Shown one piece after another: positions 15,376 to 36,886 of a stretch of DNA of 64,000 bases. The notes beneath the pieces are model-generated. The model made no database searches and was not told the origin of the DNA. It saw only the letters and a list, made by a program, of their open reading frames with translations. This DNA comes from Rhizobium sp. Q54. GTDB lineage: Bacteria > Pseudomonadota > Alphaproteobacteria > Rhizobiales > Xanthobacteraceae. A program made the translations under genes and the position numbers. Location: assembly GCA_945907045.1 (NCBI GenBank), contig CAMDSH010000003.1, forward strand, positions 1 through 64,000, in the 5' to 3' direction. Position 1 is the first letter of the stretch, and every line of letters starts with the position of its first letter.

Positions 15376-15395
15376 TTTGGTATAATGATGTTCTA
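15376..15395 (-). promoter_or_regulatory. Shared 20-bp operator, copy A (DpgC-like operon)
   Basis: Read toward the DpgC-like gene the site is TAGAACATCATTATACCAAA, 19 of 20 identical to copy D at 36867. It ends 43 bases before the start codon. A perfect TTGACA lies just upstream on the same strand (15416-15411), so the element occupies the position of the core promoter. This fits repression by a bound regulator, most likely the TetR protein encoded divergently at 15617. Confidence 0.75.
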
Positions 15396-15529
15396 TAATA
15401 TGCAAACGGCTGTCAACCTGCGATTCTGGCCAGGCACACAAGTCTATTCGCGGAATGCGCCGGCGCCATGAGCTGCTTGCGAATGTGTGGCCGCCGCAGC
15501 CATGAGGGAGCAAGCAGCGCGCGATTGAT

Positions 15530-15549
15530 TTTGGAATCATATTGTTCTA
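15530..15549 (-). promoter_or_regulatory. Shared operator, weaker copy E (near tetR)
   Basis: On the minus strand the site reads TAGAACAATATGATTCCAAA, matching 15 of 20 positions of the consensus, including the whole outer halves TAGAACA and CCAAA. It lies 67 bases before the TetR start codon. A second site on the TetR side of the divergent region is what autoregulation would predict. Being the most diverged copy, it is less certain than A-D. Confidence 0.5.
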
Positions 15550-15616
15550 ATTCCACGCGAAGATGCATGCCGCTGCGAGCGACGCCCCTGACGGCATGAT
15601 CTCTTAAAGGCTGGCA

Positions 15617-16345
15617 ATGCCGGTGAAAGCGACCCAGCGGAAAATGAACAGTCTGAGCGCGCATCAGACTGCGAATATTCCAACCACGATCAAAAATCCG
15701 GAACGCGTCGCGCATCGACGCACGGAACTGATCGACGTCGCGACGAAACTTTTTCTTGAGCGCGGATTTCACAACACGTCGATCCGCGACATCGTCCGTG
15801 CCTGCTCGTTCAACATCGCGAGCCTTTACATGTACGTGTCCTCGAAAGAGGACATTCTCTATCTCGTCGCGCAGGATTTGATGAACAACATCGCGCGCGA
15901 ACTCGGCGAAACCGTGCTTGTCGAGGATTCGCCGAAACGGTCGCTGGAGCATGGGTTCGCCAGCTACTGCCGCATCGCGGATCGCTTGCGCCGGCCGATC
16001 CGTCTACTGTACCGCGAAGTCGCCTTCCTGCCGGAGGAGCCGCGCTCCAACGTGCTCGGCACCGTTGCCGGTGTAGTGACTTATTTCGAACGAATCGTGA
16101 AGCAGGGCATCGCGTCGGGCGAATTCCGTAGCGTGAATGCTAGGCTGGCGGCACTCGACATCATGTTCTTCGCGCACATGATTGCGTTGCATACTCGCGA
16201 GGTGCGCCAGCTCGCGGATCTTGAAGAATATATCGACTTCCAGATGCAAACAATTTTCGCAGGATTGCTGACCAATCCGGCAAACAGAGGGACAAGGTCC
16301 GCCGGCAAAAAATCGTCTGCCAAGAAATCCCAGAAGACGCGCTAA
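15617..16345 (+). CDS. TetR/AcrR-family transcriptional regulator
   Basis: 242 residues. The N-terminal TetR helix-turn-helix spans about residues 35-82 (ELIDVATKLFLERGFHNTSIRDIVRACS...SLYMYVSSKEDILYLVA), followed by an all-helical ligand domain with the TetR_C_33-like stretch FASYCRIADRLRRPIRLLYREVAFLP. The C-terminal 20 residues are Lys/Ser-rich and probably disordered. It is divergent from the DpgC-like operon with a 284-base spacer that holds two copies of the shared 20-bp element, making it the prime candidate to control the regulon. Many TetR proteins of this type sense acyl-CoA or aryl-CoA esters; the ligand here is unknown. It ends 3 bases from the convergent livF. Confidence 0.92.
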   Translation: MPVKATQRKMNSLSAHQTANIPTTIKNPERVAHRRTELIDVATKLFLERGFHNTSIRDIVRACSFNIASLYMYVSSKEDILYLVAQDLMNNIARELGETVLVEDSPKRSLEHGFASYCRIADRLRRPIRLLYREVAFLPEEPRSNVLGTVAGVVTYFERIVKQGIASGEFRSVNARLAALDIMFFAHMIALHTREVRQLADLEEYIDFQMQTIFAGLLTNPANRGTRSAGKKSSAKKSQKTR

Positions 16346-16348
16346 AAA

Positions 16349-17056
16349 CTAAAGCCCAAGATAGGCCGCGCGCACGCGCGGGTCTTCCAGCAACGCGCGG
16401 CCGGTTCCGCTAATCGTAATGCGGCCGGTTTCGATCACATAGCCGCGGTCGGCAATCGCCAGCGCCGCGTAGGCGTTCTGCTCCACCAGCAAAACCGTCA
16501 GGCCGCGTTTTTTAAAATCGGCGATGATTGCGAAAATCTGCTCGACCAAAATCGGGGCCAACCCCATCGACGGTTCGTCAAGCAGCACAAGCTTGGGCTT
16601 TGCCATCAGCGCGCGTCCGATGGCGAGCATCTGCTGCTGGCCGCCGGAGAGCGCGCCGGCTTGCAAATGACGTTTCTCGGCCAGCACCGGAAATGTCGTG
16701 TAGATATTTTCAAGATCAGTGGCGATGCCGTCATCCCGGCGGGTCACCGCGCCGAGGCGCAGATTATCGTCCACCGTGAGCGGTGCGAACACCTGGCGGC
16801 CTTCCGGCACTTGCGCCATGCCGCGCGCGACGCGCTTGTGTGCCTTCAAGCCGCCGATTGATTCCCCGGAGAATGAGATCGTTCCGCCCGTCGTCGGCTG
16901 CACACCGGAGATCGCGCGCAGCAGCGTCGTCTTTCCGGCGCCGTTCGATCCGACCAGGGTCACGATCTCGCCTTCGGCGACATTGAAAGAAACGCCGTGC
17001 AACACCTCGATGCGCCCGTAGCGGCTTGTCAGGTTTTCAACGGACAGCAAGGCCAA
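16349..17056 (-). CDS. livF: Branched-chain amino acid-type ABC transporter ATP-binding protein LivF (system 1)
   Basis: 235-residue ATPase. Walker A is GSNGAGKTT, the ABC signature is ALSGGQQQMLAIGRALM, Walker B is KLVLLDEPSMGLAP and the H-loop-adjacent VEQN is characteristic of LivF rather than LivG (which has VEHD). It energises the LivHM permease at the inner membrane. The start at 17056 overlaps the end of livG by 20 bases. It is the last gene of the minus-strand operon livK-livH-livM-livG-livF. Confidence 0.95.
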   Translation of the reverse strand: MALLSVENLTSRYGRIEVLHGVSFNVAEGEIVTLVGSNGAGKTTLLRAISGVQPTTGGTISFSGESIGGLKAHKRVARGMAQVPEGRQVFAPLTVDDNLRLGAVTRRDDGIATDLENIYTTFPVLAEKRHLQAGALSGGQQQMLAIGRALMAKPKLVLLDEPSMGLAPILVEQIFAIIADFKKRGLTVLLVEQNAYAALAIADRGYVIETGRITISGTGRALLEDPRVRAAYLGL

Positions 17057-17828
17057 GCTCCGTCTTGCCCTTCACGCCCAGATAAGCCGCGACCACCGCC
17101 GGATTGCTCCGTACGGCGTCAGCGTTGCCCTCCGCCAGCGTGCGCCCCTGATCGAGAACGTGGATGCGGTTGGAAATTTTCATGACGAGACGCATGTCGT
17201 GCTCGACCAGCACCACCGTGACGCCGCGCGCTGCGATCTTCTTGATCACCGCGTCGATCTCTTCGGTCTCCACCGGATTGCAACCGGCGGCGGGTTCGTC
17301 GAGCAGAAGAATTTTTGGTTCAGTCGCCAGCGCGCGGGCGACTTCAAGCCGTTTGAGCGCGCCATAGGACAATGCGCCTGCAGGGCGTTCGGCGGCGTCG
17401 GCCAATCCGACAATCGATAAAAGTTCAAGCGCGCTCTCATGCGTCGTACGGTTCTGCCGCCCCACCGATGGCAAGCCGAACAGATGCGCGAAGACGTTGC
17501 GGTTTTCGTGCAGATGACGGCCAACCATGACGTTCTCGACCACGCTCATGCGGAAAAAAATTTGCAGGTTTTGGAACGTGCGCGAGAGGCCGCGCCGGGC
17601 AAGCTGATGCGGGGGCAGGCCGGTAACGTCCTCGCCATCGAGCGTGATGCGCCCGCTTTTCGGCGGGTAAAGCCCTGACACAAGATTGAACAGCGTCGTC
17701 TTGCCCGCGCCGTTGGGTCCGATGATCGCGAAGATGTCCCCGCGCGCGACATTGAGATTGATGCCTTCCAGCGCCTTCAACCCGCCGAACGCAATTCCGA
17801 GATTTTCGATGGTGAGCAGCGCGTTCAA
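17037..17828 (-). CDS. livG: ABC transporter ATP-binding protein LivG (system 1)
   Basis: 263 residues. Walker A is GPNGAGKTT, the Q-loop is SRTFQNLQIF, the signature is degenerate (LSYGALKRLEVARAL) as is usual in LivG, Walker B is KILLLDEPAAGCNP and the switch is VEHDMRLVM. The C-terminal YLGVKG is typical of LivG/LivF proteins. The start codon overlaps the livM stop by 4 bases (ATGA), so the two are translationally coupled. Partner of LivF in the heterodimeric ATPase. Confidence 0.95.
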   Translation of the reverse strand: MNALLTIENLGIAFGGLKALEGINLNVARGDIFAIIGPNGAGKTTLFNLVSGLYPPKSGRITLDGEDVTGLPPHQLARRGLSRTFQNLQIFFRMSVVENVMVGRHLHENRNVFAHLFGLPSVGRQNRTTHESALELLSIVGLADAAERPAGALSYGALKRLEVARALATEPKILLLDEPAAGCNPVETEEIDAVIKKIAARGVTVVLVEHDMRLVMKISNRIHVLDQGRTLAEGNADAVRSNPAVVAAYLGVKGKTELGLAVR

Positions 17829-18775
17829 GCCGTCCTCCGGCGAAAGCGCTGCGCGAGCGAAGGCACGATGCCGCCCGGCAGGAAGATCATGAACACGATC
17901 ATGATGAGGCCGAGCATGATGTGCTCGTATTCGTGAAACACGGTGAGCACCTGCGGCAGGATGACCAATATGGCCGCGCCGGTGATGCTGCCGAGGATGG
18001 AACCAAGGCCGCCGAGCACGGCCATCACCACGAACTCGATGGAGCGGATGAAGCCGGTGGTGTCTGGCGTTACAAATCCGTCGAACAGCGAAAAGTACGA
18101 ACCTGCGATGGCGGCGTAGACCGCCGACATGACGAACACGAGGAGCTTGTAACGAGGAACGTCGATGCCCAATACGCGCGCGGCAGTCTCGCTGTCATGA
18201 ATGGCGCGAAATGCGCGGCCGGTCGGGCTGGTGATGAGGTTCACCGCGATCCACGCGCCGATCACCAAACTCACGCCTGAAATCCAGTACCAGGTCTGCG
18301 AGCCGTAAGCGCGCCAGCCGAACACGACGAGCCGCGGCACTTCCATCCCGTTCGGGCCGCCGGTGATGTCGGCTTCGTTCGTGAACACCATCGAAATAAG
18401 CAGTCCGAGGCCGAGTGTCGCGACGGCGAGGTAATAGCCGCGCAGCTTCAGAATTGGTTGTCCAACAATAAACGCGAGCAAAGCCGAGAACACCGCGCCG
18501 CCGATCAGCGACGCCCAGACCGGCAGGCCGAGATAGGCCGGGCCAAGCGTAACGGCGTAAGCGCCGATGCCGAAAAATCCCGCGTGTCCGAGGCTGACCT
18601 GACCGGCAAAGCCCATCAGCAAATTGAGCCCGATGACCGCGAGCGCATTTATGAAAACCAGTGCGGCGATGCGGAGATAAAAAGCCGACGGCAGCACGAG
18701 CGGCAACAGCAGCACGAGCGTCGCGAGCGCAATCACCACCATGTAAGGCTTGCTGGTGAAGCGATGCACGGTCAC
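17825..18775 (-). CDS. livM: Branched-chain amino acid-type ABC transporter permease LivM (system 1)
   Basis: 316-residue integral membrane protein with about 8-9 hydrophobic segments. LivM landmarks are NLLMGFAGQVSLGHAGFFGIGAY, LRLRGYYLAVATLG and the coupling-helix region GRAFRAIHDSETAARVLGIDVPRYKLLVFVMSA. The start overlaps livH by 4 bases. Substrate class is not decided by LivM; Liv-type importers in alphaproteobacteria also take up aromatic and other carboxylic acids. Confidence 0.95.
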   Translation of the reverse strand: MTVHRFTSKPYMVVIALATLVLLLPLVLPSAFYLRIAALVFINALAVIGLNLLMGFAGQVSLGHAGFFGIGAYAVTLGPAYLGLPVWASLIGGAVFSALLAFIVGQPILKLRGYYLAVATLGLGLLISMVFTNEADITGGPNGMEVPRLVVFGWRAYGSQTWYWISGVSLVIGAWIAVNLITSPTGRAFRAIHDSETAARVLGIDVPRYKLLVFVMSAVYAAIAGSYFSLFDGFVTPDTTGFIRSIEFVVMAVLGGLGSILGSITGAAILVILPQVLTVFHEYEHIMLGLIMIVFMIFLPGGIVPSLAQRFRRRTA

Positions 18776-19644
18776 ACCCGCTCAATGCTGGCGCGGCCGA
18801 ACAAACCCTGCGGCATGGCGAACAGCACCGCGAGAATGACGATGAAGGCGATCGCATCTTTATATTGCGACGAGAGGTAGCCCGCGCCGAAAGCCTCTAA
18901 CAGGCCGAGCAGAAGTCCGCCGGCCACCGCGCCGATAGGGCTGCCCATGCCTCCGAGCATGGCGGCAGCGAATCCCTTGAGCGCGAGCAGCGTGCCGATA
19001 GCGTAATTGGTGAGCGTGATCGGCGTCGCCAGCAGCCCGCCGATGGCTCCGATCAGGGCGGAAACAACGAAAGAGATGCCGATGACTGCGGATGTATCGA
19101 TTCCGACGAGCCGCGCGGCGAGCCGGTTCGCGGCGGTTGCCAGCATCGCTTTGCCCATCAGCGTGCGATTGAGGAACAGCCACAACGCCGTGACGATGAT
19201 GCCGGTGCCGATCAGCACGATGATGCTTTGCGGGAGAATAGCTGCGCCGCCGAGGTTCAGCGGTGTATCGCCGGCGAGCGGCGGCAGGCTGTGAAAGTTC
19301 TTGTCGAAGAACACCGCTGCGAGGCCGCGCATCAGGATCGACGCGCCGATGGTGATGATAATCAGCGTGACGGGCGAAGCGCCGCGCGCGGGTTCGATTG
19401 CCAGCCGATGCAGCAGTATTCCGAACAATACCGTAACGACAATGGCGAGCAGCGCGGCGAGCGGCAGGGGTATCCCGGCTGCGGCGGCGAACACGGCAGT
19501 CATGCCGCTCACCATCACGAACTCGCCTTGCGCGAAGTTGATGACGTCGGATGCGTTGTAGATGAGCGTGAATCCGAGGGCGATCAGGGCGTAGATCGCC
19601 CCAACCGTCAGTCCGGAAAATGCGAATTGCAGAAACTCAGCCAT
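18772..19644 (-). CDS. livH: Branched-chain amino acid-type ABC transporter permease LivH (system 1)
   Basis: 290 residues with about 8 membrane segments. LivH landmarks are GLTVGAIYALIALGFTLIYNASDVINFAQGEFVMVSGM and GGMGSPIGAVAGGLLLGLLEAF. It pairs with LivM. A 158-base gap separates it from livK upstream and contains a strong hairpin (19720-19757), which is likely to lower expression of the permease genes relative to the receptor. Confidence 0.95.
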   Translation of the reverse strand: MAEFLQFAFSGLTVGAIYALIALGFTLIYNASDVINFAQGEFVMVSGMTAVFAAAAGIPLPLAALLAIVVTVLFGILLHRLAIEPARGASPVTLIIITIGASILMRGLAAVFFDKNFHSLPPLAGDTPLNLGGAAILPQSIIVLIGTGIIVTALWLFLNRTLMGKAMLATAANRLAARLVGIDTSAVIGISFVVSALIGAIGGLLATPITLTNYAIGTLLALKGFAAAMLGGMGSPIGAVAGGLLLGLLEAFGAGYLSSQYKDAIAFIVILAVLFAMPQGLFGRASIERV

Positions 19645-19802: not shown

Positions 19803-20933
19803 TCAGTTCACCAGCGTCCAGTCCCCGCCCTTGATTTCGAGCATGCGGAACGAGGTCAGATCGAGGCCGAGGTGATCGGTCGCTGACATGTTGACCATGC
19901 CACCGGTGCCGACGAAGCCTTTGGTCTTTTCGATTTCGTCACGCACCTTGGCCTTGTCGGCGCTTTTCGCGCGCTTCATGGCCTGCGTCAGGATCATCAG
20001 CGCGTCATACATGTGACCGCCGAAGGTCGAAACCGGTTCGCCGGTCTGCTTCTCGTATCGCGTCTTGTAAGCCAACGCGACTTTCTTGAGCGGGTCGCTG
20101 TCGGGCAGCTTTTCCGCGACCAGCGTGGCGGCCGCCGGGAGGCGGACGCCTTCCGAGGCATCGCCCGCAAGCTTGATGTAACTCTTCGACGAAACGCCGT
20201 GGCTCTGATAGAGCGGCACGCCGATTGCGAGCTGACGATAGTTGCGCGTAACGATGGCCGGCCCCTGACCGAAGCCGCAATTGATGACCGCCTGCACGCC
20301 CGCCGTATTCTTGATGTTGGTGAGCTGCGGGGTCATGTCGCTGTCGCCTGCGCCGTAGATTTCATCCTTGACGACGGTGATGCCGAACTGCGGCGCCATC
20401 TTCAGACATTCGGTGCGCATCGCTTTGCCCCAGCCGTCGGTGCCGGAGATCATGCCGATATTGGTGATCTTGCGCTTCTTGAGATCCTCGAAAATCTTTC
20501 CGCATGACATCGGCTCGGTGTGCGGTGTTTTGAACACCCACTTGCGCACCGGGAAAACGATTTCCGCCGCGCCCGCCAGAGCGATGAAAGGGATGCTGGC
20601 GTCGGAATAGATCGGAACCATCGCAAGGCTGGTGCCGGTGATCGAGCCGCCCAATACGGCATCGACTTTGTCTTCTTCAACCAGACGCGTGGCGAAGGTG
20701 CGCGCTTTGCTGGCGTCGCCGCCGTCGTCATAAATGAAAAGCTTGATTTGCTGGCCGTTGATGCCGCCGGAAGCGTTCATCTCGGCGACGTACATTTCGA
20801 GAGTTTTCTTTTCCGGGTCGCCGAGGAACGATGCTGGGCCGGTGATCGAAAGCACCGAACCGATCTTGATGTCAGCTTGAGCGGACGTTGCCGCGAAAAC
20901 CAAAGCTGCTGCTGCAACTGCAAGTTTCTTCAT
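19803..20933 (-). CDS. livK: ABC transporter substrate-binding protein, LivK type (system 1)
   Basis: 376-residue periplasmic receptor of the type I fold. ATG 20933, preceded by GGGAGGAGACA, gives the signal peptide MKKLAVAAAALVFAATSAQA; the 31 extra in-frame codons upstream are not coding. The mature protein starts DIKIGSVLSITGPASFLGDPEKKTLEMYV, as in LivJ/LivK relatives. The residues that bind the ligand amino group cannot be identified by eye, so an amino acid substrate is not assured; control by the same operator as CoA catabolism genes argues for the pathway's own substrate. Operator copy B lies 80 bases upstream. Confidence 0.93.
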   Translation of the reverse strand: MKKLAVAAAALVFAATSAQADIKIGSVLSITGPASFLGDPEKKTLEMYVAEMNASGGINGQQIKLFIYDDGGDASKARTFATRLVEEDKVDAVLGGSITGTSLAMVPIYSDASIPFIALAGAAEIVFPVRKWVFKTPHTEPMSCGKIFEDLKKRKITNIGMISGTDGWGKAMRTECLKMAPQFGITVVKDEIYGAGDSDMTPQLTNIKNTAGVQAVINCGFGQGPAIVTRNYRQLAIGVPLYQSHGVSSKSYIKLAGDASEGVRLPAAATLVAEKLPDSDPLKKVALAYKTRYEKQTGEPVSTFGGHMYDALMILTQAMKRAKSADKAKVRDEIEKTKGFVGTGGMVNMSATDHLGLDLTSFRMLEIKGGDWTLVN

Positions 20934-21013
20934 TGTCTCCTCCCATCTGGCTGTTTTATTTTTCTTTTGGGCCGGCACCCGGCGAAATTGGCAAAGCCTT
21001 GTGCCCGCCCAAA

Positions 21014-21033
21014 TTTGGTATAACACTATTCTA
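21014..21033 (-). promoter_or_regulatory. Shared 20-bp operator, copy B (livK1)
   Basis: On the minus strand, toward livK1, the site reads TAGAATAGTGTTATACCAAA, matching 17 of 20 positions of copy D. Its orientation relative to livK1 is the same as copies A, C and D have to their genes. It lies between livK1 and the divergent iorA-like gene (start 21234) and may affect both. Confidence 0.7.
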
Positions 21034-21233
21034 GATCAGGGCTCCCGGGTTGGGAAGGGTCATTCTGCCGCTGACCCGGCGGAGTTGCGCGCTGTGGCGT
21101 TACGTCTCAACGCCTGCGTGATTTGGAATGTGTTGCGATTGTTTCAGATGATGCGGCGTCAGATACCGGCAAGATATCTGGGATGCATCATTGTAAAAAA
21201 GCAGAACCGTCGGCCGGAATGACGGAGTAGGGC
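21034..21233 (+). other. Leader region of the indolepyruvate oxidoreductase operon
   Basis: Two hundred bases between operator copy B and the iorA-like start. No small gene is apparent. The stretch has a TTTGGAAT at 21122-21129 that matches the start of the 15530-15549 operator copy, but the rest diverges, so I do not call it a site. A GGAGTAGGGC ribosome site precedes ATG 21234. Confidence 0.3.
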
Positions 21234-23377
21234 ATGGAGCGCTCGTTCAAACAGGAAGTGCAGTCGCTGCGCCTCGGCGCCGGCGACACTTTTCACGGCG
21301 AGGGCATTCTCGCGGTCACCAAGGCGCTGCTGCAATCGGGTGTGAGCTACGTCAGCGGCTATCCGGGCGCGCCGGTGTCGCATCTCGTCGATGTGCTGAC
21401 CGATGCCTCCGACATTCTCGACGATCTTGGTGTTCACTTCGAACCGGCGGCGAACGAAGCCGGCGCCGCCGCCATGCTCGGTGCATCGATTCAATATCCC
21501 ATTCGCGGCGCGGTGACGTGGAAGTCGGTGGTCGGCACCAATGTCGCTTCCGACGCTCTTTCGAATCTCGCTTCCGCCGGCGTCACCGGCGGCGCGCTCA
21601 TCATCGTCGGCGAAGATTATGGCGAGGGCGCCAGCATCATTCAGGAGCGCACGCACGCCTTCGCAATGAAGTCGCAAGTGTGGTTGCTCGATCCGCGGCC
21701 CAATCTGCCGACCATCGTCGGAATGGTGGAGCACGGCTTCGCGTTGTCGGAAGCCAGCAACACCCCGGTGATGCTCGAGTTGCGCATCCGTGCCTGTCAC
21801 GTGCACGGCAGTTTCGTCTGCAAGGATAATCGCGCTGCCGCGATTTCGCGCCGCAATCCGATCGCGGAGCCGAAGTTCGATTTTGCGCGGTTCTGCCTGC
21901 CGCCGTGGACCTACTCGCAGGAAAAACAAAAGATCGATGTGCGGTGGCCGGCGGCTGTTCAATACATCTCCGAGCACAAGCTCAATGAAGTTTTCACGGG
22001 CAAGCACGATCATCTCGGCATCATCGTGCAGGGTGGTCTCTACAACGGTGTGATGCGCTCGTTGCAGCGCCTCGGTCTCGCCGACGCTTACGGTGCCACC
22101 GATATTCCGATCTACGTGCTCAACGTCACCTATCCGCTAATTCCATCCGAGATCACCGACTTTTGCCGTGGCAAAAAGGACATGCTGATCGTCGAGGAAG
22201 GTCAGCCGAACTATCTTGAGCAAGCGATCAAGGCGACGCTGCAGGAGCGCAACGTCACGGGCAGCGCCATTCATGGCAAGAATGTCTTGCCGCAAGCCGG
22301 TGAATACACCGGCGAGGTCGTCGTGACGGGCATTGCAAAGTTTCTCGGCTCGGCTTGGCCGCAAGGCGAAACCGCCGGACAATGGAAGGCGCTGACCGAA
22401 GAGATACGCATCGCCAAGGAACGCGCGGCGGACCTGCTGGGGCAGCCCGTTCCGGTGCGCCCGCCCGGCTTCTGCGTCGGTTGCCCGGAGCGTCCGGTTT
22501 TCAGCGCCATCAAGATCGCCGAAAAGAAAATCGGGAAGACCCACATCACCGGCGATGTCGGCTGCCATATTTTCGCGTCGCTCGCGCCGTTTCACCTCGG
22601 CAACACGATGCTCGGTTACGGCCTTGGGCTGGCGAGCGGGGCGGGGATCGCCGCCAATTTCAAAAAACGCGTCATCAACATCATGGGCGACGGCGGATTC
22701 TGGCATAACGGCCTGACCACCGGGGTCACCAATGCCGTCGCCAATGGCGACGACGGCATCCTCATCATCATGAAAAACGGCTACGCGGCGGCAACCGGCG
22801 GGCAGCGCATTCCAACCTCGCCCGGCTCACCGCGTGTCCCATCGAGGCAGCCGCGCATCGACAAGGTGCTCAGGAACGTGGGCGTGAAGTGGCTCAAGAC
22901 CATTCACAGCTACACCGTGAGCAGCATGCTCAAGGCGCTGGTCGAGGCGAGCACGACGCCGGAACGTGGATTGAAGGTCATCATCGCCGACGGCGAATGT
23001 CAGCTGGAGCGCCAGCGGCGCATTCGGCCTCTGATCGCCAAGCAGCTGAGCGAAGGCAAGCGCGTGGTGCGTACGCGCTTCGGCATCGATCCCGATGTCT
23101 GCACGGGCGATCACTCCTGCATCCGCCTGTCAGGCTGTCCCTCGCTCACCATCGCACCCAATCCCGATCCGCTGCGCAAGGACCCCGTTGCCAAGGTCGA
23201 CAACAATTGCGTCGGCTGCGGCCTTTGCGGCGAAGTCGCGCACGCCGCCGTGCTGTGCCCGTCGTTTTACCGCGCCGAGATCATCCAGAATCCGACCTGG
23301 TGGGACGGCATTGTGGATCGCGTGCGGCGCGTCATCATTGGCGCGCTGCGTCCGTCGCGCTCCGCGACCGCCGTGCA

Positions 23378-23381
<4 letters not shown>
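21234..23381 (+). CDS. iorA: Indolepyruvate:ferredoxin oxidoreductase alpha subunit (IorA-like)
   Basis: 715 residues. It oxidatively decarboxylates an arylpyruvate (indolepyruvate, phenylpyruvate, 4-hydroxyphenylpyruvate) to the arylacetyl-CoA with reduction of ferredoxin. The order is a ThDP Pyr-type domain (20-200, SGYPGAPVSHLVDVL), a swivel region, a ThDP PP-type domain with GDVGCHIFASLAPF and MGDGGFWHNGLTTG...NGYAAATGG (about 435-530), and a C-terminal two-cluster ferredoxin domain with CTGDHSC...SGCP and CVGCGLCGEV...LCP. The second cluster has the full CxxCxxCx(n)CP pattern and the first is a variant one. It overlaps the beta gene by ATGA. Such arylacetyl-CoA products would suit the DpgC-like enzyme of the neighbouring unit. 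Confidence 0.93.
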
Positions 23382-26043
<2,662 letters not shown>

Positions 26044-26121: not shown

Positions 26122-26124
26122 CGC

Positions 26125-26721: not shown

Positions 26722-26743
26722 CGCTCTGACAAACGAGTAACGC

Positions 26744-28352: not shown

Positions 28353-28383
28353 AACGAGGCGTTCCAAAAAACGAGGGCATGAC

Positions 28384-29289: not shown

Positions 29290-29336
29290 CCCGCCCGACC
29301 ATCATCCGTTGATGAGAATTTAGAGGACTAAGAAAC

Positions 29337-30167
29337 ATGAGCGACTATTCCTGGAAGGAAATGATGGCGGTGGTGTTCTCGCGCGAGATCAAGGACACGG
29401 ACAAGATCACGTCCGGCGCGCACACCGAAATCTTCTTCGCCGCCACGATGCTGGCGCAGAAAACGCATGCTCCGAATCTCAAGCTGCAGCTTGGCGGGTC
29501 GGTGACCTTGTGCCAGGTGACCGACATCGAAGTGAGCGAGCTGCCGAAGACCTCGACCGGCTACGATCTGATCCGTTACGCAGAGTCGGTGCATGATCAT
29601 CCGGACACGTTCCTGTTTTACGGCGCGCCGGGCGGCAAGGATTATTACAAGGACGGCAGCGAGTTCCGTGACGTCAACCACTTCTGGTTTGCCGACAAAT
29701 TCTTCGTCGGCGGCATTCAGGCCGACAAGTGGGGCAACACCAACATGATCGGCCTTGGCACGAAGGACAAAATGACCTTCCGCGGCCCGGGCACCATCGG
29801 CATCAACGATATTGCCATTGGCGTGCGCGACACTTACGTGTTCCTGACGGCGCACGACAAGCGGCGTCTGGTCGACAAGGTCGACTTCATCTCGCATCCC
29901 GGCAAGAAAATCTGCCGTGAAAACGAGTTCTACGGCGGCGGTCCGAAATGGATCGTGACGCCGAAGTGCATCTTCGATTTCGACCCGGATACGCTCGAAG
30001 CCCGTTTGGCGATGACGTTCCCCGGCGTTACCGTAGAAGACGTAAAGGCCAATACCGGCTTCGAGGTGAAGACCGCGAAGAAGGTCGAAACGGTGCAGCC
30101 GCCGACCAAGGACGAGCTCGGGGCTCTGCGCAACGAGGTTGATAAGACGGGCGTTCTCCGGCACTGA
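29337..30167 (+). CDS. CoA-transferase-family beta subunit, IpdB-like (copy 1), catalytic Glu absent
   Basis: 276 residues. The opening EMMAVVFSREIKDTDKITSGAHTEIFFAATMLAQKTHAPNLKLQLGG follows the GctB/IpdB beta fold. In true CoA-transferases the strand after HAPNL ends in a catalytic Glu (Glu54 in Acidaminococcus GctB, context E-x-G). Here the residues are LQLGG (50-54) with no acid. IpdB also lacks this Glu and IpdAB opens a steroid ring by hydrolysis, so the same chemistry is likely. The C-terminal half (FRGPGTIGINDIAIGVRDTYVFLTAHDKRRLVDKVDFIS...GPKWIVTPKCIFDFD) is typical. It follows the alpha gene by 47 bases, with a GAGGA ribosome site. Paralogue at 32833. Confidence 0.85.
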   Translation: MSDYSWKEMMAVVFSREIKDTDKITSGAHTEIFFAATMLAQKTHAPNLKLQLGGSVTLCQVTDIEVSELPKTSTGYDLIRYAESVHDHPDTFLFYGAPGGKDYYKDGSEFRDVNHFWFADKFFVGGIQADKWGNTNMIGLGTKDKMTFRGPGTIGINDIAIGVRDTYVFLTAHDKRRLVDKVDFISHPGKKICRENEFYGGGPKWIVTPKCIFDFDPDTLEARLAMTFPGVTVEDVKANTGFEVKTAKKVETVQPPTKDELGALRNEVDKTGVLRH

Positions 30168-30223
30168 TCGCCGGAGAGCCTCATCGCCGTAGGACGAAAC
30201 GATAGCAACGGAAAAGGTGGCCC

Positions 30224-31696
30224 ATGAACAAGGTCGAAACGCAGACTGTCGCGAAATTCCAGCCTGAAACGTGGGGCGCCTTTATCAATGGCGAATTCGT
30301 TCCCTCGGTGAGCGGGAAAACATTCCCGACCTTCAATCCCGGAACCGGCGAGATTTGCGGACATCTTGCCGAGTGCGACGAGGAAGACATCGACCGTGCC
30401 GTGCGCGCGGCGCTCGCCGCTTTCCCGGCCTGGAAAAAGAAAACAGGGGCGGCGCGGGCAAAATCCCTAATGAAACTCGCGCAACTCGTCGAAGCACATG
30501 GCGCCAAGCTCGCCGAACTTGAATCAATCAACGCCGGCAAGCCGATCCGCGACTCCAAGGCGATCGATGCCGTGACCGCGATCGACGCGCTCGAATACTT
30601 CGCCGGCATGTGCACCAAGATTCAGGGCGACACCATTCCGGTGCCGGGTCCCTACATCAACATGACGCTGCGGGAGCCGCTCGGCGTCATCGGTGGCATC
30701 ATTCCGTGGAACTATCCGCTGCTGCAGGCGGTGTGGAAGATCGCGCCGGCAATCGCGGCGGGCAACACCGTCGTGCTCAAGCCGGCCGAGCAAGCCTGCC
30801 TCTCGGTCATGTATCTCGGCAAGCTGATCGCGGAAGCCGGCATTCCGGCGGGCGTCGTCAACATCGTGCCAGGCTACGGCCCGGTGGCGGGTCTTGCACT
30901 GGTGCAGCACCACATGGTCGCCAAGGTGATGTTTACCGGTAGCACCGAAACCGGCAAGCGCATCGCGGCGGAAGCTGCGAGCACGCTCAAGCCGATCGGG
31001 CTCGAACTCGGCGGCAAGAGCGCCGTCATCGTCTATGAAGACGCGCCGATCGATCAGGCCGCGTCAATCGCCGCCATGTCGATCTTCAGCAATCAGGGTC
31101 AGGTTTGCACCGCCGGCTCGCGCCTGTTCCTGCACGAAAAAATTCACGACAAGGTTCTGGAGAAAGTTATCGAGGCCGCGAAGAAAGTTCGCCTCGGCGA
31201 CCAGATGGATCCGGCGACCACCATGGGCCCGCTCATTTCCAAGAAGCAGAAAGACCGCGTGCTCGGTTACATCGCCAGCGGCAAGAGCGACGCCAAGATC
31301 GTCTACGGCGGCGACGAGCCGAAAGGTCTGGAGAAGGGCTTCTTCGTTGGACCGGCGATTTTCGATCAGGTGCAGAACTCGATGAAGATCGCGCGCGAGG
31401 AAATTTTCGGGCCGGTGCTCTCGGTACTCACCTTCAAGGAAGAAGCCGAGGCCATCGCGCTGGCGAATGATTGCGTCTACGGCCTCGCAGCGTCGGTCAT
31501 CACCCGCGACATCGGCCGCGCCATGCGGACGGCGCAAGCGTTTGAAGCCGGCAACGTGTGGGTCAACACCTGGGGCGCGGTAAGTTCGATGGCGCCCTAT
31601 GGCGGCTACAAGGGCAGCGGCTACGGCCGCGAAATGGGCTTCGCGGTCATGCGCGAAGTCACGCAAGAAAAGAGCCTGTGGGTGAACGTGCGCTAA
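30224..31696 (+). CDS. NAD(P)-dependent aldehyde dehydrogenase
   Basis: 490 residues, the full length for the ALDH superfamily. The general base Glu is in GLELGGKSAVIV, the nucleophilic Cys in NQGQVCTAGSRLF, the cofactor loop in FTGSTETGKRI, and the oxyanion Asn in IIPWNYPLLQAVWKIAPAIAAGNTVVLKPAEQ. The sequence is closest in feel to betaine- or aromatic-aldehyde dehydrogenases. It lies in the operon between the IpdB-like gene and the NMO-type gene, so it probably oxidises an aldehyde released in the pathway, for instance by a thiolase/aldolase step. A cofactor preference cannot be read off. Confidence 0.93.
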   Translation: MNKVETQTVAKFQPETWGAFINGEFVPSVSGKTFPTFNPGTGEICGHLAECDEEDIDRAVRAALAAFPAWKKKTGAARAKSLMKLAQLVEAHGAKLAELESINAGKPIRDSKAIDAVTAIDALEYFAGMCTKIQGDTIPVPGPYINMTLREPLGVIGGIIPWNYPLLQAVWKIAPAIAAGNTVVLKPAEQACLSVMYLGKLIAEAGIPAGVVNIVPGYGPVAGLALVQHHMVAKVMFTGSTETGKRIAAEAASTLKPIGLELGGKSAVIVYEDAPIDQAASIAAMSIFSNQGQVCTAGSRLFLHEKIHDKVLEKVIEAAKKVRLGDQMDPATTMGPLISKKQKDRVLGYIASGKSDAKIVYGGDEPKGLEKGFFVGPAIFDQVQNSMKIAREEIFGPVLSVLTFKEEAEAIALANDCVYGLAASVITRDIGRAMRTAQAFEAGNVWVNTWGAVSSMAPYGGYKGSGYGREMGFAVMREVTQEKSLWVNVR

Positions 31697-31715
31697 AGGC
31701 GCCGCGGACGCCGCC

Positions 31716-32711
31716 GTGCGCTCGCAGCTCTTTCGCACGCGCATTACCGATCTTTTCGGCATCCGTCATCCGATCCTCTGCGGAGGTTTGTTCTGGCTGG
31801 CGGATGCGCGTTACGTAGCGGCGGCGGTCAACGCCGGGAGCATGGGCTTCATGACAGCCCTGTCGTTTCCGGACGATCCGGAAGGTTTCCGCGCTGAAAT
31901 CCGAAAATGCCGCGCGCTCACCGGCGGCAAGCCGTTCGGCGTCAGCATCGCGTTCTCGGACCGGCCCGGCGTCAACGAACGGTTGACGCCCTATATCGAG
32001 ATCACCGCCGAGGAGAAGGTCGCGTTCGTCGAGACGTCGGGCGGAAATCCGGCGCAATTCGTCGGCGATCTGAAAGCCGCCGGGTGCGTCATCATCCATA
32101 AGGTGCCGGCTGTGCGCTATGCGCTCAGCGCGCAGAAATTGGGCGTCGATGCGATTACAGTCGTCGGTGGCGAGGCCGGCGGGCATCCTGGCGTCTACAT
32201 GGTCGGCAATATCGTGCAGGCCGCGCTCGCGGCCGATGCTGTTACTCTTCCGCTTGCGGTCGGCGGCGGAATGGGCACCGGCCGTCATCTCGTCACAGCG
32301 CTGGCGCTCGGGGCGGACGCCATGATGGTCGGCTCGCGCATGCTCACCGCCACCGAAATCTGGGGCCACGAGCGTTACAAGCAGCGCATGATCGAGGCCA
32401 ACGAGCTGGACAACCGCGTTGTCATGAAGGCGTTCCGCGCCAATCATCGCGTGCTGGATAATGCGACCGCGAAGGCGGTCGACGAACTGGAGAGTCGCGG
32501 CGAAAGAGATTTCGAAAAGTACCGCGATCTGGTCAGCGGAAAGCTCGTGCGGCGCGCTTACGAAACTGGCGACTGGTCGCAAGGGCTGATCGATCTTGGC
32601 CCGGCGGGCGTGTTCGCCCGCGAGATCAAACCGGTCGAGGAAATCATGGATCAGTTGATCGACGAAGCCGCTGCGGCGATAGGGCGCATCGAGACGTTGA
32701 CTGTCCCTTGA
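31716..32711 (+). CDS. Nitronate monooxygenase / FMN-dependent enoyl reductase family protein (IpdC-like)
   Basis: 331 residues of the FMN TIM-barrel family. Landmarks are GIRHPILCGGLFWLADARYVAAAVNAGSMGFM, the VGGEAGGHPGVYM loop and LPLAVGGGMGTGRHLVTALALGADAMMVGSRML (FMN phosphate binding). The active-site His of canonical nitronate monooxygenases in GGHxG is present as GGHPG. In Mycobacterium the relative IpdC (Rv3553) is encoded beside ipdAB and acts on a CoA ester, so an acyl-CoA redox role is likelier here than detoxification of nitronates (inference from context). The start is GTG 31716, 19 bases behind the aldehyde dehydrogenase; it is the last gene of the operon. Confidence 0.87.
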   Translation: MRSQLFRTRITDLFGIRHPILCGGLFWLADARYVAAAVNAGSMGFMTALSFPDDPEGFRAEIRKCRALTGGKPFGVSIAFSDRPGVNERLTPYIEITAEEKVAFVETSGGNPAQFVGDLKAAGCVIIHKVPAVRYALSAQKLGVDAITVVGGEAGGHPGVYMVGNIVQAALAADAVTLPLAVGGGMGTGRHLVTALALGADAMMVGSRMLTATEIWGHERYKQRMIEANELDNRVVMKAFRANHRVLDNATAKAVDELESRGERDFEKYRDLVSGKLVRRAYETGDWSQGLIDLGPAGVFAREIKPVEEIMDQLIDEAAAAIGRIETLTVP

Positions 32712-32770
32712 GCCGCCCAAAATCGCATGTGGATCTTTCACGCCGGGGTTCGCAATGTCCGGCCGCCGCC

Positions 32771-32807: not shown

Positions 32808-32832
32808 TAATGGATAACAACGGAAACGCCGC

Positions 32833-33681
32833 ATGACGACATCGCCTGCCGCTGCTCGAGGAAACGAGCCTGCCTGGAAGGAGCGCATGGCCATCGCGCT
32901 GGCGCGCGACATCGTCGATGGCGAGCGCATCATTTCCGGCGCGCACACCGAAATCTCGTTCGCGGCGGCGATGCTCGCGCAAAAAATGCATGCGCCGAAC
33001 ATCAAGCTGCAGCTCGGCGGCACGTGCTTTCTGGTCAACGTCACTGACCTGAAGGTGCAGCTTCCGAAGACCTCCACCGATTTTCGCATGTTGCGCTGGG
33101 CGGAGATCGCCTACGATCACATGGAAACATTCATGTACTTCGGCGCGCCAGGCGGACGGGCCTATTACAAGGGCGGCCGGCCGGCGACCAACAAGTATTT
33201 CGTCGGCGACAAGTTTTTCGCCGGCGGCATTCAGGTTGATGGCAACGGCAATGCGAACATGATCGGCCTCAAGGGTGAGGGCGGCAAGCGCTTCGGCTTC
33301 CGCGGTCCCGGTTCGATCGGAATTACCGATATCGTGACGGTGGCGACGCCGTATATCTTCGTGACCCATCACGACAAGCGCACGATGGTCGAGAAAGTCG
33401 ATTACGTTTCCATGCATGGGCCGAAAGGCTGGCGCGACAACAAATTCCCCGGCCACGGCCCGAAGTGGATCATTACGCCGCGCGCAATTTTTACTTTTGG
33501 CAAAGACGACCGCGCCCAGCTATCCGGCACGTTTGCCGGCACCAGCACTGAGTGGGTGCGCGAGAATACCGGGTTCTCGTTCGATCTCGCTTCCGATTTG
33601 AGCGAGATCGCCGAGCCGACGCGCGAGGAACTCGAAGTGCTTCGTACCGAAATCGATTCCGAGGGTGTGTTGCGGCACTGA
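32833..33681 (+). CDS. CoA-transferase-family beta subunit, IpdB-like (copy 2), catalytic Glu absent
   Basis: 282 residues, clearly paralogous to the protein at 29337 (shared ISGAHTEISFAAAMLAQK, HAPNIKLQLGG, FRGPGSIGITDI, THHDKRTMVEKVDYVS, GPKWIITPRAIFTF). As in copy 1 the transferase Glu position is replaced (LQLGG, residues 59-63). It is the first gene of a second operon: IpdB-like, thiolase, OB protein, IpdA-like, PadR. Its alpha partner is not adjacent but three genes downstream, so the order differs from cassette 1 and the two arose by an old duplication with rearrangement. A ring-opening hydrolase is inferred as for copy 1. Confidence 0.85.
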   Translation: MTTSPAAARGNEPAWKERMAIALARDIVDGERIISGAHTEISFAAAMLAQKMHAPNIKLQLGGTCFLVNVTDLKVQLPKTSTDFRMLRWAEIAYDHMETFMYFGAPGGRAYYKGGRPATNKYFVGDKFFAGGIQVDGNGNANMIGLKGEGGKRFGFRGPGSIGITDIVTVATPYIFVTHHDKRTMVEKVDYVSMHGPKGWRDNKFPGHGPKWIITPRAIFTFGKDDRAQLSGTFAGTSTEWVRENTGFSFDLASDLSEIAEPTREELEVLRTEIDSEGVLRH

Positions 33682-33702
33682 TCGTTCAGGCGAGGTTGCG
33701 TG

Positions 33703-34866
33703 ATGAGCGTTGAGGTTCACATCGCAGGCGTCGGCACGACGAAGTTTGGCGTGCTGCCGGGCCACACATTGCAGAGCCTCGCTGTCGAAGCAGCGCGCGC
33801 CGCGCTAGCGGATTCCAAAATTCCGGCGGACAAAATCGGTTGGGTGCTGGTCGGAAATTTCGTCGGCGGCATCATGACCGGGCAGGAACTGCTCGGGCCT
33901 ATCGTTGCCGCCGATCTCGGACTCTCCAACGTCGCGGCGATCAAGGTCGAAGCGGCCTGCGCCTCCAGCAGCGCCGCCGTGCGTATTGGCCACGATCTGG
34001 TCCGCGCCGGCGCGGAAGAAGCCGTGCTCGTCGTCGGCGTCGAACGGCTGACCGGCGCGCCGCGCGAGGCACTCACTTCGGCGATGACGGCCGCCATCGA
34101 TCAGGGCACCGAAGGCGGCAGCGGGCTCACGTTCCCCGCATTCTGGGGGCTGGTGATGGCCCGACACATGCATCTTTATGGCACCACGCGCGAGCAGGTC
34201 GCCGCCGTGACGGTGAAGAACCGCCAGTTCGGCATCACCAATCCGCTGGCGCAATATCAAAAGGCGATCACTCTGGAACAGGTGATGACGTCGCCGCCGA
34301 TCGCCGATCCGATCCTCCGCTTCGACTGTTGCCCCGGCACCGATGGCGCCGCCGCTGTGGTGCTCGCAAGCAAATCGCTGGCGCAGAAATACGGTTCGCC
34401 CTCTGTGCGCGTGGCGGCTTCCGTGCTGGTCAACGGGCCGGTCCGCATTACCGACTACAAGGACATCACGACGCACGACGGCACGGTCAATGCCGCGCGC
34501 CGCGCCTATGAGGCCGCGGGCGTTGGGCCGCAGGATATCGATGTCGCCGAATTGCACGACTGTTTCTCCATCGCGGAAATCGTCGATAGCGAGGATCTCG
34601 GTTTTTTCGCCAAAGGCGACGGTGGTCCGGCGGTGACCAGGCCCGCATCCGAGCGCAACACGAAGGTCGTCATCAATCCGAGCGGCGGGTTGCTCTCGAA
34701 AGGCCATCCGACCGGCGCGACCGGCTGCGGCCAGATCTACGAGATCGCCATGCAGCTTCGCGGCCGGCATCCGAACCAGGTCGCGCAGGCGCGCTGGGGC
34801 CTCACGCATAACGGCGGCGGCACCGCGGCAGCCGTCACCGTGCACATTCTGGAAGCGCTGAAATGA
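33703..34866 (+). CDS. SCP2-type thiolase, copy 2
   Basis: 387 residues from ATG 33703 (GTG 33700 just before it is also in frame). The nucleophile is Cys in KVEAACASSSAAV and the catalytic His is in GGLLSKGHPTGATGCGQI. The loop HDCFSIAEIVDSEDLGF marks the SCP2/lipid-transfer-type thiolases. It overlaps the next gene by ATGA; that gene encodes an OB-fold protein likely to be its partner, like the DUF35-thiolase pair at 26744-28352. It differs substantially from copy 1, so the two probably act on different intermediates. Confidence 0.92.
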   Translation: MSVEVHIAGVGTTKFGVLPGHTLQSLAVEAARAALADSKIPADKIGWVLVGNFVGGIMTGQELLGPIVAADLGLSNVAAIKVEAACASSSAAVRIGHDLVRAGAEEAVLVVGVERLTGAPREALTSAMTAAIDQGTEGGSGLTFPAFWGLVMARHMHLYGTTREQVAAVTVKNRQFGITNPLAQYQKAITLEQVMTSPPIADPILRFDCCPGTDGAAAVVLASKSLAQKYGSPSVRVAASVLVNGPVRITDYKDITTHDGTVNAARRAYEAAGVGPQDIDVAELHDCFSIAEIVDSEDLGFFAKGDGGPAVTRPASERNTKVVINPSGGLLSKGHPTGATGCGQIYEIAMQLRGRHPNQVAQARWGLTHNGGGTAAAVTVHILEALK

Positions 34867-35096
34867 CGCCTGGTCAATCGCTCACAGGCTCGGTTCAAAG
34901 CCACACGATCATCCGCGTGCCTGGCAAGGCGCACGCCGCGAAAGCGCCGTTCGTTCTGTTGCTGGTTCAGCTCGACGATGGACGGCGCGTGCTTGGGCAT
35001 TTCAGCGGCGCCGAGCCGCCCGCCATCGAATCCCGCGTGATGGCAAGCGGCGCCGATAACGAGACCCTGTCATTTGCACTTGAGGACAAGTCATGA
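34863..35096 (+). CDS. OB-fold-only DUF35-like protein without zinc ribbon
   Basis: 77 residues. The sequence LTGSVQSHTIIRVPGKAHAAKAPFVLLLVQLDDGRRVLGHFSG matches the OB half of DUF35 proteins (GxVxSxT...APFxxxxVxLDDG), but there are no cysteines and so no rubredoxin-like ribbon. It is joined to its neighbours on both sides by ATGA overlaps (thiolase before, IpdA-like after), so it is certainly expressed with them. Likely role: partner of thiolase copy 2. This reduced form is unusual compared with the complete protein at 26744. Confidence 0.75.
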   Translation: MTPGQSLTGSVQSHTIIRVPGKAHAAKAPFVLLLVQLDDGRRVLGHFSGAEPPAIESRVMASGADNETLSFALEDKS

Positions 35097-36025
35097 AGCT
35101 CGATCCGATTTCGAAAACCAACCGGCCCAAGCGCAAAGAGGTGCTCAAGGGCGAAGACGAGGCCGCGGCGCTCATCAAGGACGGCGACGTCGTCATCGTC
35201 GGCGGATTCGGAACGGTCAATCATCCAATGCCGATCATCCGCGCCCTCATTCGCCGCAAGGTTAAAAATCTCACGGTTATCGGCGCGGCCACCGCCGGTC
35301 TTGAAATTGATCTTCTTATTGGGGCGGGGTGCGTGAAGAAAGTGATCGCGCCTTATGTCGGCGCCGAACTGCATGCGCCGATCGGGCATTGTTTCCGCCG
35401 CGCGGCGGAAAACGAAGAGATCGAGGTTTATGAGACGACCGAATATTTGCTGTATTCGCAGCTTGATGCGGCGGCGCGCGGTCTTGGATTTTTGCCCTGG
35501 CGCGGCGGCGTCGGCACGTCGTTGCCGGTCCTCAACAAGGATTACGTGCCGTTCAACGACCCGATCAACGGCGAGCCTTATCTCGCCGTGCCTGCGCTGC
35601 ATGCCGATTGGGCCATCATCCACGTCGGTCAGGCTGACGTGTTCGGCAACGGCCAGCACGGCGGCGCGCGCTTCGGCGACCGTCTCCTCTCACGCGCGGC
35701 CGAACGGGTGATGCTGACCGCGGAGCGGATCGTTCCCAACAGCGAGATTCGCAAAAATCCCTGGGCGACGTCCATCGCTTACGCCGACGTTGTGATTGAG
35801 GCTCCCTATGGATCACACCCGTTCGCCAGCCACGGTTTTTATACCGAGGACGAGGACGGCATTCAGGAATACGTGACGGCCTCCATCGCCTATCGCAAAC
35901 GCGACATGAAGGCATGGAACGCCTACCTCGAAAAATGGATTACGAACGTGCCGAGTCACGGAGATTATCTCTCCAAGCTCAGCGCGGCCCGTCTCTCGAA
36001 GTTGCAAAATGCCGTTCATGCGTAA
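35093..36025 (+). CDS. CoA-transferase-family alpha subunit, IpdA/GctA-like (copy 2)
   Basis: 310 residues, a paralogue of the protein at 28384 (both share GAATAGLEIDLLIGAGCVKK or near, IGHCFRR/IGHNFRK, WRGGVGTS, LHADWAIIHVGQADVFGNGQHGGARFGDR and NSEIRKNPWATSIAYADVVIEAPYGSHPFASHGFY). The YETTEYLLYSQLDAAARG segment keeps the Glu that I align with the IpdA catalytic residue. It pairs with the beta subunit at 32833. The start overlaps the OB-protein stop, and its last 17 bases overlap padR. An IpdAB-type hydrolase is inferred. Confidence 0.85.
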   Translation: MKLDPISKTNRPKRKEVLKGEDEAAALIKDGDVVIVGGFGTVNHPMPIIRALIRRKVKNLTVIGAATAGLEIDLLIGAGCVKKVIAPYVGAELHAPIGHCFRRAAENEEIEVYETTEYLLYSQLDAAARGLGFLPWRGGVGTSLPVLNKDYVPFNDPINGEPYLAVPALHADWAIIHVGQADVFGNGQHGGARFGDRLLSRAAERVMLTAERIVPNSEIRKNPWATSIAYADVVIEAPYGSHPFASHGFYTEDEDGIQEYVTASIAYRKRDMKAWNAYLEKWITNVPSHGDYLSKLSAARLSKLQNAVHA

Positions 36026-36731
36026 AACGAAAGCACGCGCGAAGACCTCGGTGACCGAGCCCACGCGGAACGGTCTGCGCGAGGCGCTTCTTGGCTTGCT
36101 GGCGATACGGCCGATGTCCGGCTACGACCTCTCGCGTTCCTATCAGCGCGCGTTGCAGCAGATATGGTACGCGCCGCTCGGGCAAATTTATCCGACCGTG
36201 CGCAAGATGCAGCAAGAGGGTTTGCTCAACGTCGCCATTGAGGTTCAGCGCGACCGGCCCAATCGCAAGGTTTACCGGCTGACGCCGGAAGGCAAGCGTC
36301 TGCTCGTGAGCTGGCTGTCGCAGCCGGCGACGCTGCCGAACATGCATCATGAATTCATCCACAAACTATTTCTGCTGAACCATGTCGACGTCAAACGCCG
36401 CGCCGTCCTGGTGGATGGTTATGTTGCGCGCTGCAAGACGTGGGCGTCGGAGCTTCGGATCATCGAGAAGCGGCTCAACGCCTCGCTCAGCGGCCCGCAT
36501 GCGGAAAGCGCATGGCATCAGTTGCTCTCGTTGCAGCATCTGCGGCGGATTGTGGAATGCGAAGCTTTGTCCGCGCAGCAGATTGCGTCCGACATTCGTG
36601 CGCGTCCGAATCCGAGGCGCGGCCGCGGTCAGGCAATAACCCGGCGATCGCTCAAGCCGCTTGAGAAGGCGGCCTTTGCGGGTCTGTCGCTGTCGCCGGC
36701 GGCTGGCGCCAAGCCGGACGCCAACGCATGA
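36009..36731 (+). CDS. PadR-family transcriptional regulator
   Basis: 240 residues. The N-terminal PadR winged helix is clear (LREALLGLLAIRPMSGYDLSRSYQRALQQIWYAPLGQIYPTVRKMQQEGLL...VYRLTPEGKRLLVSWL), followed by the helical Vir_act_alpha_C-type dimerisation region and a basic C-terminal tail. PadR itself represses phenolic acid decarboxylation genes in response to phenolic acids, so an aromatic effector is possible. It starts inside the end of the IpdA-like gene and is the last gene of cassette 2, which it probably autoregulates through the palindrome at 32795. Confidence 0.9.
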   Translation: MPFMRKTKARAKTSVTEPTRNGLREALLGLLAIRPMSGYDLSRSYQRALQQIWYAPLGQIYPTVRKMQQEGLLNVAIEVQRDRPNRKVYRLTPEGKRLLVSWLSQPATLPNMHHEFIHKLFLLNHVDVKRRAVLVDGYVARCKTWASELRIIEKRLNASLSGPHAESAWHQLLSLQHLRRIVECEALSAQQIASDIRARPNPRRGRGQAITRRSLKPLEKAAFAGLSLSPAAGAKPDANA

Positions 36732-36866
36732 GCGCCTCACTTTCATCGCGTTGCGGCATGCAATTTTTGCGCGCAACGATGGAAGGCGGGCGAGGGGAGC
36801 CCGCGCATTTTGGCCGCAGGCGTTCTCGGACGCGGAGCTTGCTCACTGCCGTCGATCGTGATTTAT

Positions 36867-36886
36867 TAGAACATCGTTATACCAAA
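36867..36886 (+). promoter_or_regulatory. Shared 20-bp operator, copy D (CoA ligase-Liv2 operon)
   Basis: TAGAACATCGTTATACCAAA, the copy I use as consensus. It ends 8 bases before GTG 36895 and 20 bases before ATG 36907 of the acyl-CoA synthetase gene, so a bound protein here would block initiation or the transcript must have a very short leader. The rest of the spacer 36732-36866 shows no gene or hairpin. Confidence 0.75.

Follow-up and report, generated by a model that had tools for sequence, protein, structure and literature searches.

Introduction

According to its published account (PMC4424350), MbdR of Azoarcus sp. CIB is a TetR-family regulator whose operators, 18-base-pair (bp) palindromes (ATACN10GTAT), cover the promoters (-10/-35) of its own gene and of two operons, one for a transporter and a ligase and one for degradation, and which is released by 3-methylbenzoyl-coenzyme A (CoA). 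KstR2, a mycobacterial TetR regulator connected with cholesterol, has a small local regulon with palindromes in divergent gaps (PMC3068626), and ipdAB is among the genes under its control (PMC5380842). Here we examine a locus in Rhizobium sp. Q54, using a window (the whole stretch of DNA analysed) of 64,000 nucleotides from contig CAMDSH010000003.1; the organism's own assembly comprises 3,316,034 bases in 74 contigs and is 91% complete. A short element recurs in this window beside the genes of an uptake-and-degradation cluster, and it is very likely the operator of the TetR-family regulator encoded at 15617-16345, which would switch the cluster via five sites.

Among the known regulators, MbdR is the closest in logic, being a local TetR protein that acts on several promoters of one cluster, including those of an operon for an ATP-binding cassette (ABC) transporter and a CoA ligase and of its own gene. 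The enzymes differ, however, and an MbdR-type operator was rejected: ATACN10GTAT matches the window at chance level (five places at ≤1 mismatch, compared with 4.66 expected), and none of these matches falls on the five sites. KstR2 is both a sequence relative (E value 3.7e-13) and a fold relative of the regulator at 15617 (TetR 15617), at about 20% identity, but its gene set differs. No stretch of the window matches the KstR2 operator AnCAAGnnCTTGnT exactly, and the four places with one mismatch (0.90 expected) all lie away from the five sites; a KstR2-type operator, absent at the five sites, was likewise rejected. A third TetR protein, AibR of Myxococcus xanthus, controls the AibAB genes, which are like those of glutaconate CoA-transferase (GCT). 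With isovaleryl-CoA as its effector, AibR (PDB 5k7h, 5k7z) ranks fifth among the structural matches to TetR 15617, with 22% identity. Judged from its sequence, the system in the window is a TetR regulon that would work like KstR2 and MbdR, but it is neither a KstR2 nor an MbdR. A literature search, in which subscription journals were thinly covered, found no paper on TetR 15617 or its operator.

Results

A preliminary description of this DNA had reported four 20-bp copies of the element and proposed a dedicated regulon. The four 20-mers do stand at the coordinates and on the strands claimed, with 0, 1, 1 and 3 mismatches relative to the copy at 36867, and no copy appeared in 100 dinucleotide shuffles of the window. 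Across the whole assembly, the 20-mer pattern at ≤3 mismatches was found in four places only (reversed control, 0). The set of four was nevertheless incomplete: a variation-tolerant pattern, TAGAAYANNRTTATACCAWA, applied to the same assembly at ≤3 mismatches, revealed one extra place at 15530-15549 on the minus strand (2 mismatches; control, 1). This fifth copy, overlooked by the earlier reader, has its 18-bp core at 15532-15549 and shares the gap between tetR and the dpgC-like gene with the first copy. The palindrome TRGWAYANYRTTRTWCYA at ≤1 mismatch occurred in the own genome in exactly five places, all inside the cluster (control, 0), and a stricter palindrome, TRGWAYAAYRTTRTWCYA, at ≤3 mismatches gave five places in the window with one mismatch each (0.20 expected). 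Thus, no copies were present beyond the cluster in the 91%-complete assembly, which accords with the proposal of a dedicated regulon. The 18-bp cores are listed here, with G numbers denoting relatives' genomes (G000 being the own genome) and L numbers denoting loci fetched from relatives.

15378-15395, minus strand: operator 1 (18-bp core), in the gap from which tetR and the dpgC-like operon diverge, with the ATG of the dpgC-like gene 45 bp away; G481 and G535 match it at 18/18 positions
15532-15549, minus strand: operator 5, in the same tetR/dpgC-like gap, closer to tetR; G481 counterpart at 44305
21016-21033, minus strand: operator 2, in the divergent livK/iorA gap; the site before livK of G481 is 20/20 identical
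26134-26151, plus strand: operator 3, upstream of the SRPBCC operon, overlapping the promoter-like pair TTGACA-16-TACCAT
36867-36884, plus strand: operator 4, directly before the fadD11-like/Liv2 operon; G535 counterpart at 92720

All of the copies are intergenic, as first described; the overlap of the livK copy with the open reading frame 19803-21026 stems from the choice of an upstream GTG start, and livK starts at ATG 20933, which is preceded by the ribosome site GGGAGGAG. The core of the element is an 18-bp imperfect inverted repeat, TRGWAYAAY/RTTRTWCYA, in which TAGAA and TTATACCA are strongly kept and the middle is free (16 sites from five genomes, picked with pattern TAGAAYANNRTTATACCAWA). 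Sites in distant relatives, such as TGGAACAACGTTATACTA and TGGAACAATGTTATACCA of G770, likewise consist of two versions of TRGWAYAAY in inverted arrangement. Over 16 distinct sites, dyad pairing at centre 9.5 reached 81/144, compared with 41.5 ± 5.2 in composition shuffles. Because this conserved core is an inverted repeat, and so a near-palindrome, the single orientation to the downstream gene that had been claimed survives as a bias but not as a strict rule; the copy at 15376 is oriented away from tetR, and an iorA site in G481, at 54490 on the minus strand, points away from its gene. A directional element was therefore rejected as a full account, the element being a dyad.

The orientation bias bears on a different possibility, namely that the element is a special promoter, either for an alternative sigma factor or as an activator-dependent -10/-35, and not an operator. 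Nearly all sites face the downstream gene in one orientation, TATAC in the right half could act as a -10, and the flanks are AT-rich. However, the dyad form disfavors such a promoter, and within the window the spacing between site and start codon varies from 10 bp (fadD11-like gene, first possible start 36895) through 45 bp (dpgC-like gene) to 132 bp (SRPBCC). The SRPBCC site is moreover surrounded by an ordinary promoter pair:

26125-26152, plus strand: sigma-70-like promoter pair (TTGACA, 16, TACCAT), 10/12 match, overlapped by operator 3

The sites also follow the tetR gene across genomes, and one of them points away from its gene, making a special promoter very improbable. Like the preliminary description, we prefer an operator, given the dyad form and the way in which the element follows tetR; the orientation bias may come from the -10 (TATAC) in its right half. 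The TTGACA hexamers that had been noted just upstream of two copies fared differently. The one at 26134 is kept in the four relatives compared, once as TTGACT, and TTGAC[AT] stands directly before the operator in 5/5 SRPBCC promoters compared (own included), whereas the one at 15376 is not kept in G481 and G535.

The proposed regulator is encoded beside operators 1 and 5:

15617-16345, plus strand: tetR, proposed regulator (TetR_N + TetR_C_24)

TetR 15617 matches PF00440 with 45.1 bits (cut-off 24) and TetR_C_24 with 31.2 bits (cut-off 26.4). Its structural model (predicted local distance difference test score, pLDDT, 78.6; predicted template modelling score, pTM, 0.70) has an all-helical TetR fold, and the leading Foldseek matches are TetR regulators; the structural neighbors include the CoA-ester regulators AibR (isovaleryl-CoA) and FadR (acyl-CoA), and KstR2. 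A hallmark of the family, a short inverted-repeat operator near the regulator's own gene, is present in the window. Distribution was followed through a family sample, a set of chosen genomes and a contig scan. Orthologues (E ≤ 1e-40), 61–71% identical, occurred in 4/390 other sampled family genomes (G481, G499, G535 and G679). Thirteen chosen genomes, five that have TetR and eight that served as controls, were scanned for co-occurrence. Of the controls, four carry a dpgC-like gene of 66–71% identity, and the other four, which belong to the own genus, carry one of 46–47%. Results demonstrated 20-mer sites at ≤1 mismatch in 5/5 TetR genomes and 0/8 controls. Weaker matches (2–3 mismatches) were found in 7/8 controls, and the reversed control also matches in several; a search of the eight controls for TetR found no orthologue and just one 34% match (G555).

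The contig scan with the TetR alignment yielded 12 loci, of which eight (L059-L066) carry a TetR at least 43% identical, including new loci in G769, G770, G771 and G772 (L061, L064, L065 and L066), and four (L067-L070) are far relatives at 24–33% identity, with no site at ≤3 mismatches within the fetched stretch. The helix-turn-helix region is near-invariant down to 43% overall identity (35/62 positions invariant in residues 24–85, compared with 20/135 in residues 86–220; nine sequences). G416, whose IpdA-like gene is 60% identical but whose TetR match reaches only 28%, has no site in 2,924 bases around the IpdA-like gene (best, 5 mismatches). These distributions indicate that the element is very probably bound by the TetR at 15617. 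In G535 we also observed a second TetR (L057:2976-3617), 49% identical and with a near-identical recognition helix, that has its own operator and lies between padR and the fadD11-like gene. Ahead of the operator of this second TetR stands CCTTCCCATCC, which is similar to CCTTCCCAnCCCGGGAG, a stretch conserved immediately upstream from the livK operator in the window (21042-21058) and in G481 (upstream of 49936). Stretches of the CCTTCCCAnCCCGGGAG type are perhaps the site of a second factor.

Linkage differs from binding, and inheritance of the cluster would equally yield co-occurrence if another, unlinked DNA-binding protein used the sites and TetR merely traveled with them. This seems very improbable, however, because sites persist near tetR where little else is shared: near tetR, G499 and G679 have nothing in common with the window but the AMP-ligase and livKHMGF, yet a site lies in the tetR gap, and G771 and G772 share with the window mainly tetR and the core operon. 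Conversely, the G499 dpgC-like gene, about 20 kilobases (kb) from tetR, has no site, and the four relatives with a 66–71% identical dpgC-like gene and no TetR lack sites both in the fetched stretches (palindrome, ≤2 mismatches) and across their genomes (20-mer, ≤1 mismatch). The tetR paralogue of G535, with its near-identical recognition helix, has a site of its own. A further candidate binder is the PadR-type regulator at 36009-36731, whose gene adjoins operator 4 and also occurs in the G535 cluster at 61% identity. Its distribution fails to follow the sites, and it was rejected as the binder, a role that we regard as extremely improbable for it. PadR (E ≤ 1e-10) has no match in 5/9 motif-bearing genomes (G481, G499, G679, G769 and G772, some of these assemblies being incomplete), and G770 and G771 have only distant PadR proteins (31% and 25%) on contigs other than those of the sites. 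TetR, in contrast, is present in all nine, and a clear PadR orthologue besides the own one is found only in G535.

Conservation beside orthologous genes, which the dedicated regulon also implied, was found for the dpgC-like, livK, SRPBCC-operon and fadD11-like genes and for tetR. The site in the dpgC-like/tetR gap is present in G000, G481 and G535, and the second site of this gap in G000 and G481. The livK site is shared by G000 and G481 (20/20 identical), the fadD11-like site by G000 and G535, and the site before the SRPBCC operon by G000, G481, G535, G769 and G770. In G771 a site precedes DUF35, with no SRPBCC match, and in G772 a site again precedes DUF35, with SRPBCC upstream of DUF35. Sites also precede the same thiolase-IpdAB-ALDH module beside a 43%-identical TetR. 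The livK and iorA genes of G481 are about 4.7 kb apart with one site each, but a single gap with a single site separates them in the window, suggesting that operator 2 may serve iorAB too. G770 has a site also before a quinone-oxidoreductase gene beside tetR. In G499 and G679 a single site was found, between tetR and a different divergent operon in which a ferredoxin-like gene comes first; at these loci (L044 of G499 and L063:4810-6891 of G679) the operon behind the operator contains the ferredoxin-like gene and a gene for a protein of 481 amino acids (aa), which in G679 has no Pfam match. At one G535 locus (L056, G535:C2:84831-85960), what is left of the decayed dpgC-like gene is a match of 64 residues, the ligase gene is fragmented, and the operator before them is intact.

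Two further checks were unbiased. Each 18-mer of the 450-bp stretch upstream of tetR was scored by summing its best matches in the corresponding stretches of six other genomes; the top 18-mer was that at 15378, TGGTATAATGATGTTCTA, with 97/108, compared with a best sum of 74 in 20 shuffles; G769 (12) and G771 (11) match this 18-mer poorly, and it still ranks first with both added. In a blind scan for the motif at ≤1 mismatch in 397 genomes of the order (own included), five others matched, and the reversed control matched eight. One of the five, G144 (the same genome as L064/G770), has a TetR 58% identical to that of the window, and one true TetR genome was therefore recovered from the motif alone.

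Several observations weigh against an operator of TetR 15617. The other four genomes of the blind scan have no TetR orthologue, and since the reversed control matched eight genomes, single matches at ≤1 mismatch are mostly chance. The eight control genomes of the co-occurrence scan were hand-picked by the author, and the sites for the logo and dyad count were chosen using the motif itself. A looser palindrome gave seven off-cluster matches at one mismatch (in G535, G769, G770 and G772), compared with 4 control matches (nine genomes). The tetR genes of G769 and G771 lack a good site directly upstream, the site there standing only before the core operon, and no site at ≤4 mismatches of the 20-mer was found for livK of G499 and G679 or for the dpgC-like gene of G499. 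Finally, centre 8 pairs 68% of 7 pairs, compared with 55% of 9 at centre 9.5 (23 listed sites), and because it pairs about as well, centre 9.5 is the better fit but not a fixed choice.

Discussion

With an operator of TetR 15617 as the preferred reading, we infer that a TetR dimer would bind each of the five copies of the 18-bp imperfect inverted repeat, whose half-site is TRGWAYAAY. Operator 3 fills the -35/-10 spacer and the -10 hexamer of the SRPBCC promoter, where a bound repressor would block RNA polymerase. Repression by blocking of the polymerase is the simplest reading, because the operator covers spacer and -10 at the SRPBCC operon and ends 10 bp before the fadD11-like start. With two copies in the tetR/dpgC-like gap, tetR would also regulate itself. 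A CoA thioester derived from the substrate would bind the C-terminal domain, upon which the repressor would release the DNA and the genes for uptake (through two Liv transporters), for activation (by two ligases) and for degradation would be turned on together. By analogy, a CoA ester is a likely inducer, because the neighbors of TetR include CoA-ester regulators and most enzymes of the cluster belong to acid or CoA-ester families. Besides tetR, the cluster contains the following genes.

12033-13520, minus strand: AMP-forming acyl-CoA ligase
13563-13946, minus strand: FlK-like hotdog thioesterase
13986-15332, minus strand: DpgC-like arylacetyl-CoA oxygenase homologue (NF042432, 421 bits, under the 530 cut-off)
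16349-19644, minus strand: livF, livG, livM and livH (ABC transporter 1), livF by Pfam, the others named from sequence and gene order
19803-20933, minus strand: livK, substrate-binding protein, start ATG 20933
21234-24931, plus strand: IorA/IorB-like 2-oxoacid:ferredoxin oxidoreductase, two genes, the second starting near 23372
24955-26043, plus strand: DctP-type solute-binding protein
26284-32711, plus strand: SRPBCC, DUF35/ChsH2-type, thiolase, IpdA-like, IpdB-like, ALDH and NMO (core regulated operon)
32833-36025, plus strand: second IpdB-like, thiolase and IpdA-like set
36009-36731, plus strand: PadR-type regulator, rival candidate
36895-43608, plus strand: fadD11-like acyl-CoA synthetase and ABC transporter 2, livK2 by Pfam, H2, M2, G2 and F2 from sequence and gene order

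Several of the enzymes have informative relatives. The dpgC-like protein falls short of the NCBIfam equivalog cut-off for DpgC (3,5-dihydroxyphenylacetyl-CoA dioxygenase) and is homologous over about 390 residues to PDB 2np9. The PDB entry nearest to the thiolase at 27171 is 7pxp, a subunit of benzoylsuccinyl-CoA thiolase; the DUF35 partner of the thiolase is nearest to 6esq, then to 7pxp. Both subunits of the CoA-transferase-like pair are nearest to GCT (1poi) and next to 6co6/6con (IpdAB). A GEI stretch of the IpdA/B-like pair is common with 6co6 chain A and not with 1poi; its Glu is presumably catalytic.

Neighboring genes in relatives add to this picture. In G481 (L038:7357-11747) a molybdopterin oxidoreductase (921 aa) and an iron-sulfur protein with a long hydrophobic tail (542 aa), possibly PadBCD-like, lie between livK and iorA, where the window has neither. 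In G772 (L066:17838-19737) the alpha and beta genes of a Rieske ring-hydroxylating dioxygenase lie beside the core module. In G770 (G770:C102, L072:1224-3595) an operator separates livF from a gene set that includes an HpaB-like member, which hints at an aromatic substrate; the first gene of this set may be MarR-like.

It is conceivable, though doubtful, that the regulon serves a single undescribed pathway for an arylacetic-type acid. A ligase would activate the acid, a DpgC-type oxygenase (in G481 also a PadB-like molybdenum enzyme) would convert arylacetyl-CoA to arylglyoxylate, the IorAB-like enzyme would yield aroyl-CoA, and DUF35-thiolase, IpdAB and ALDH would act on later intermediates, with TetR sensing one such CoA ester. 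The route from arylacetyl-CoA through arylglyoxylate to aroyl-CoA that links these enzymes is a guess. If true, it would place oxygen-dependent and oxygen-independent versions of one step under one switch.

As a regulatory switch, the system looks, from its sequence, like a local TetR catabolic regulon of a familiar kind that is itself new. It would link one regulator and one operator with five or six transcription units, along with two transporters and two ligases whose function is uncharacterized. The inducer, and via the inducer the substrate, could be found by a simple binding test, and the operator together with tetR may serve as a marker for locating the same regulon elsewhere in the Alphaproteobacteria.

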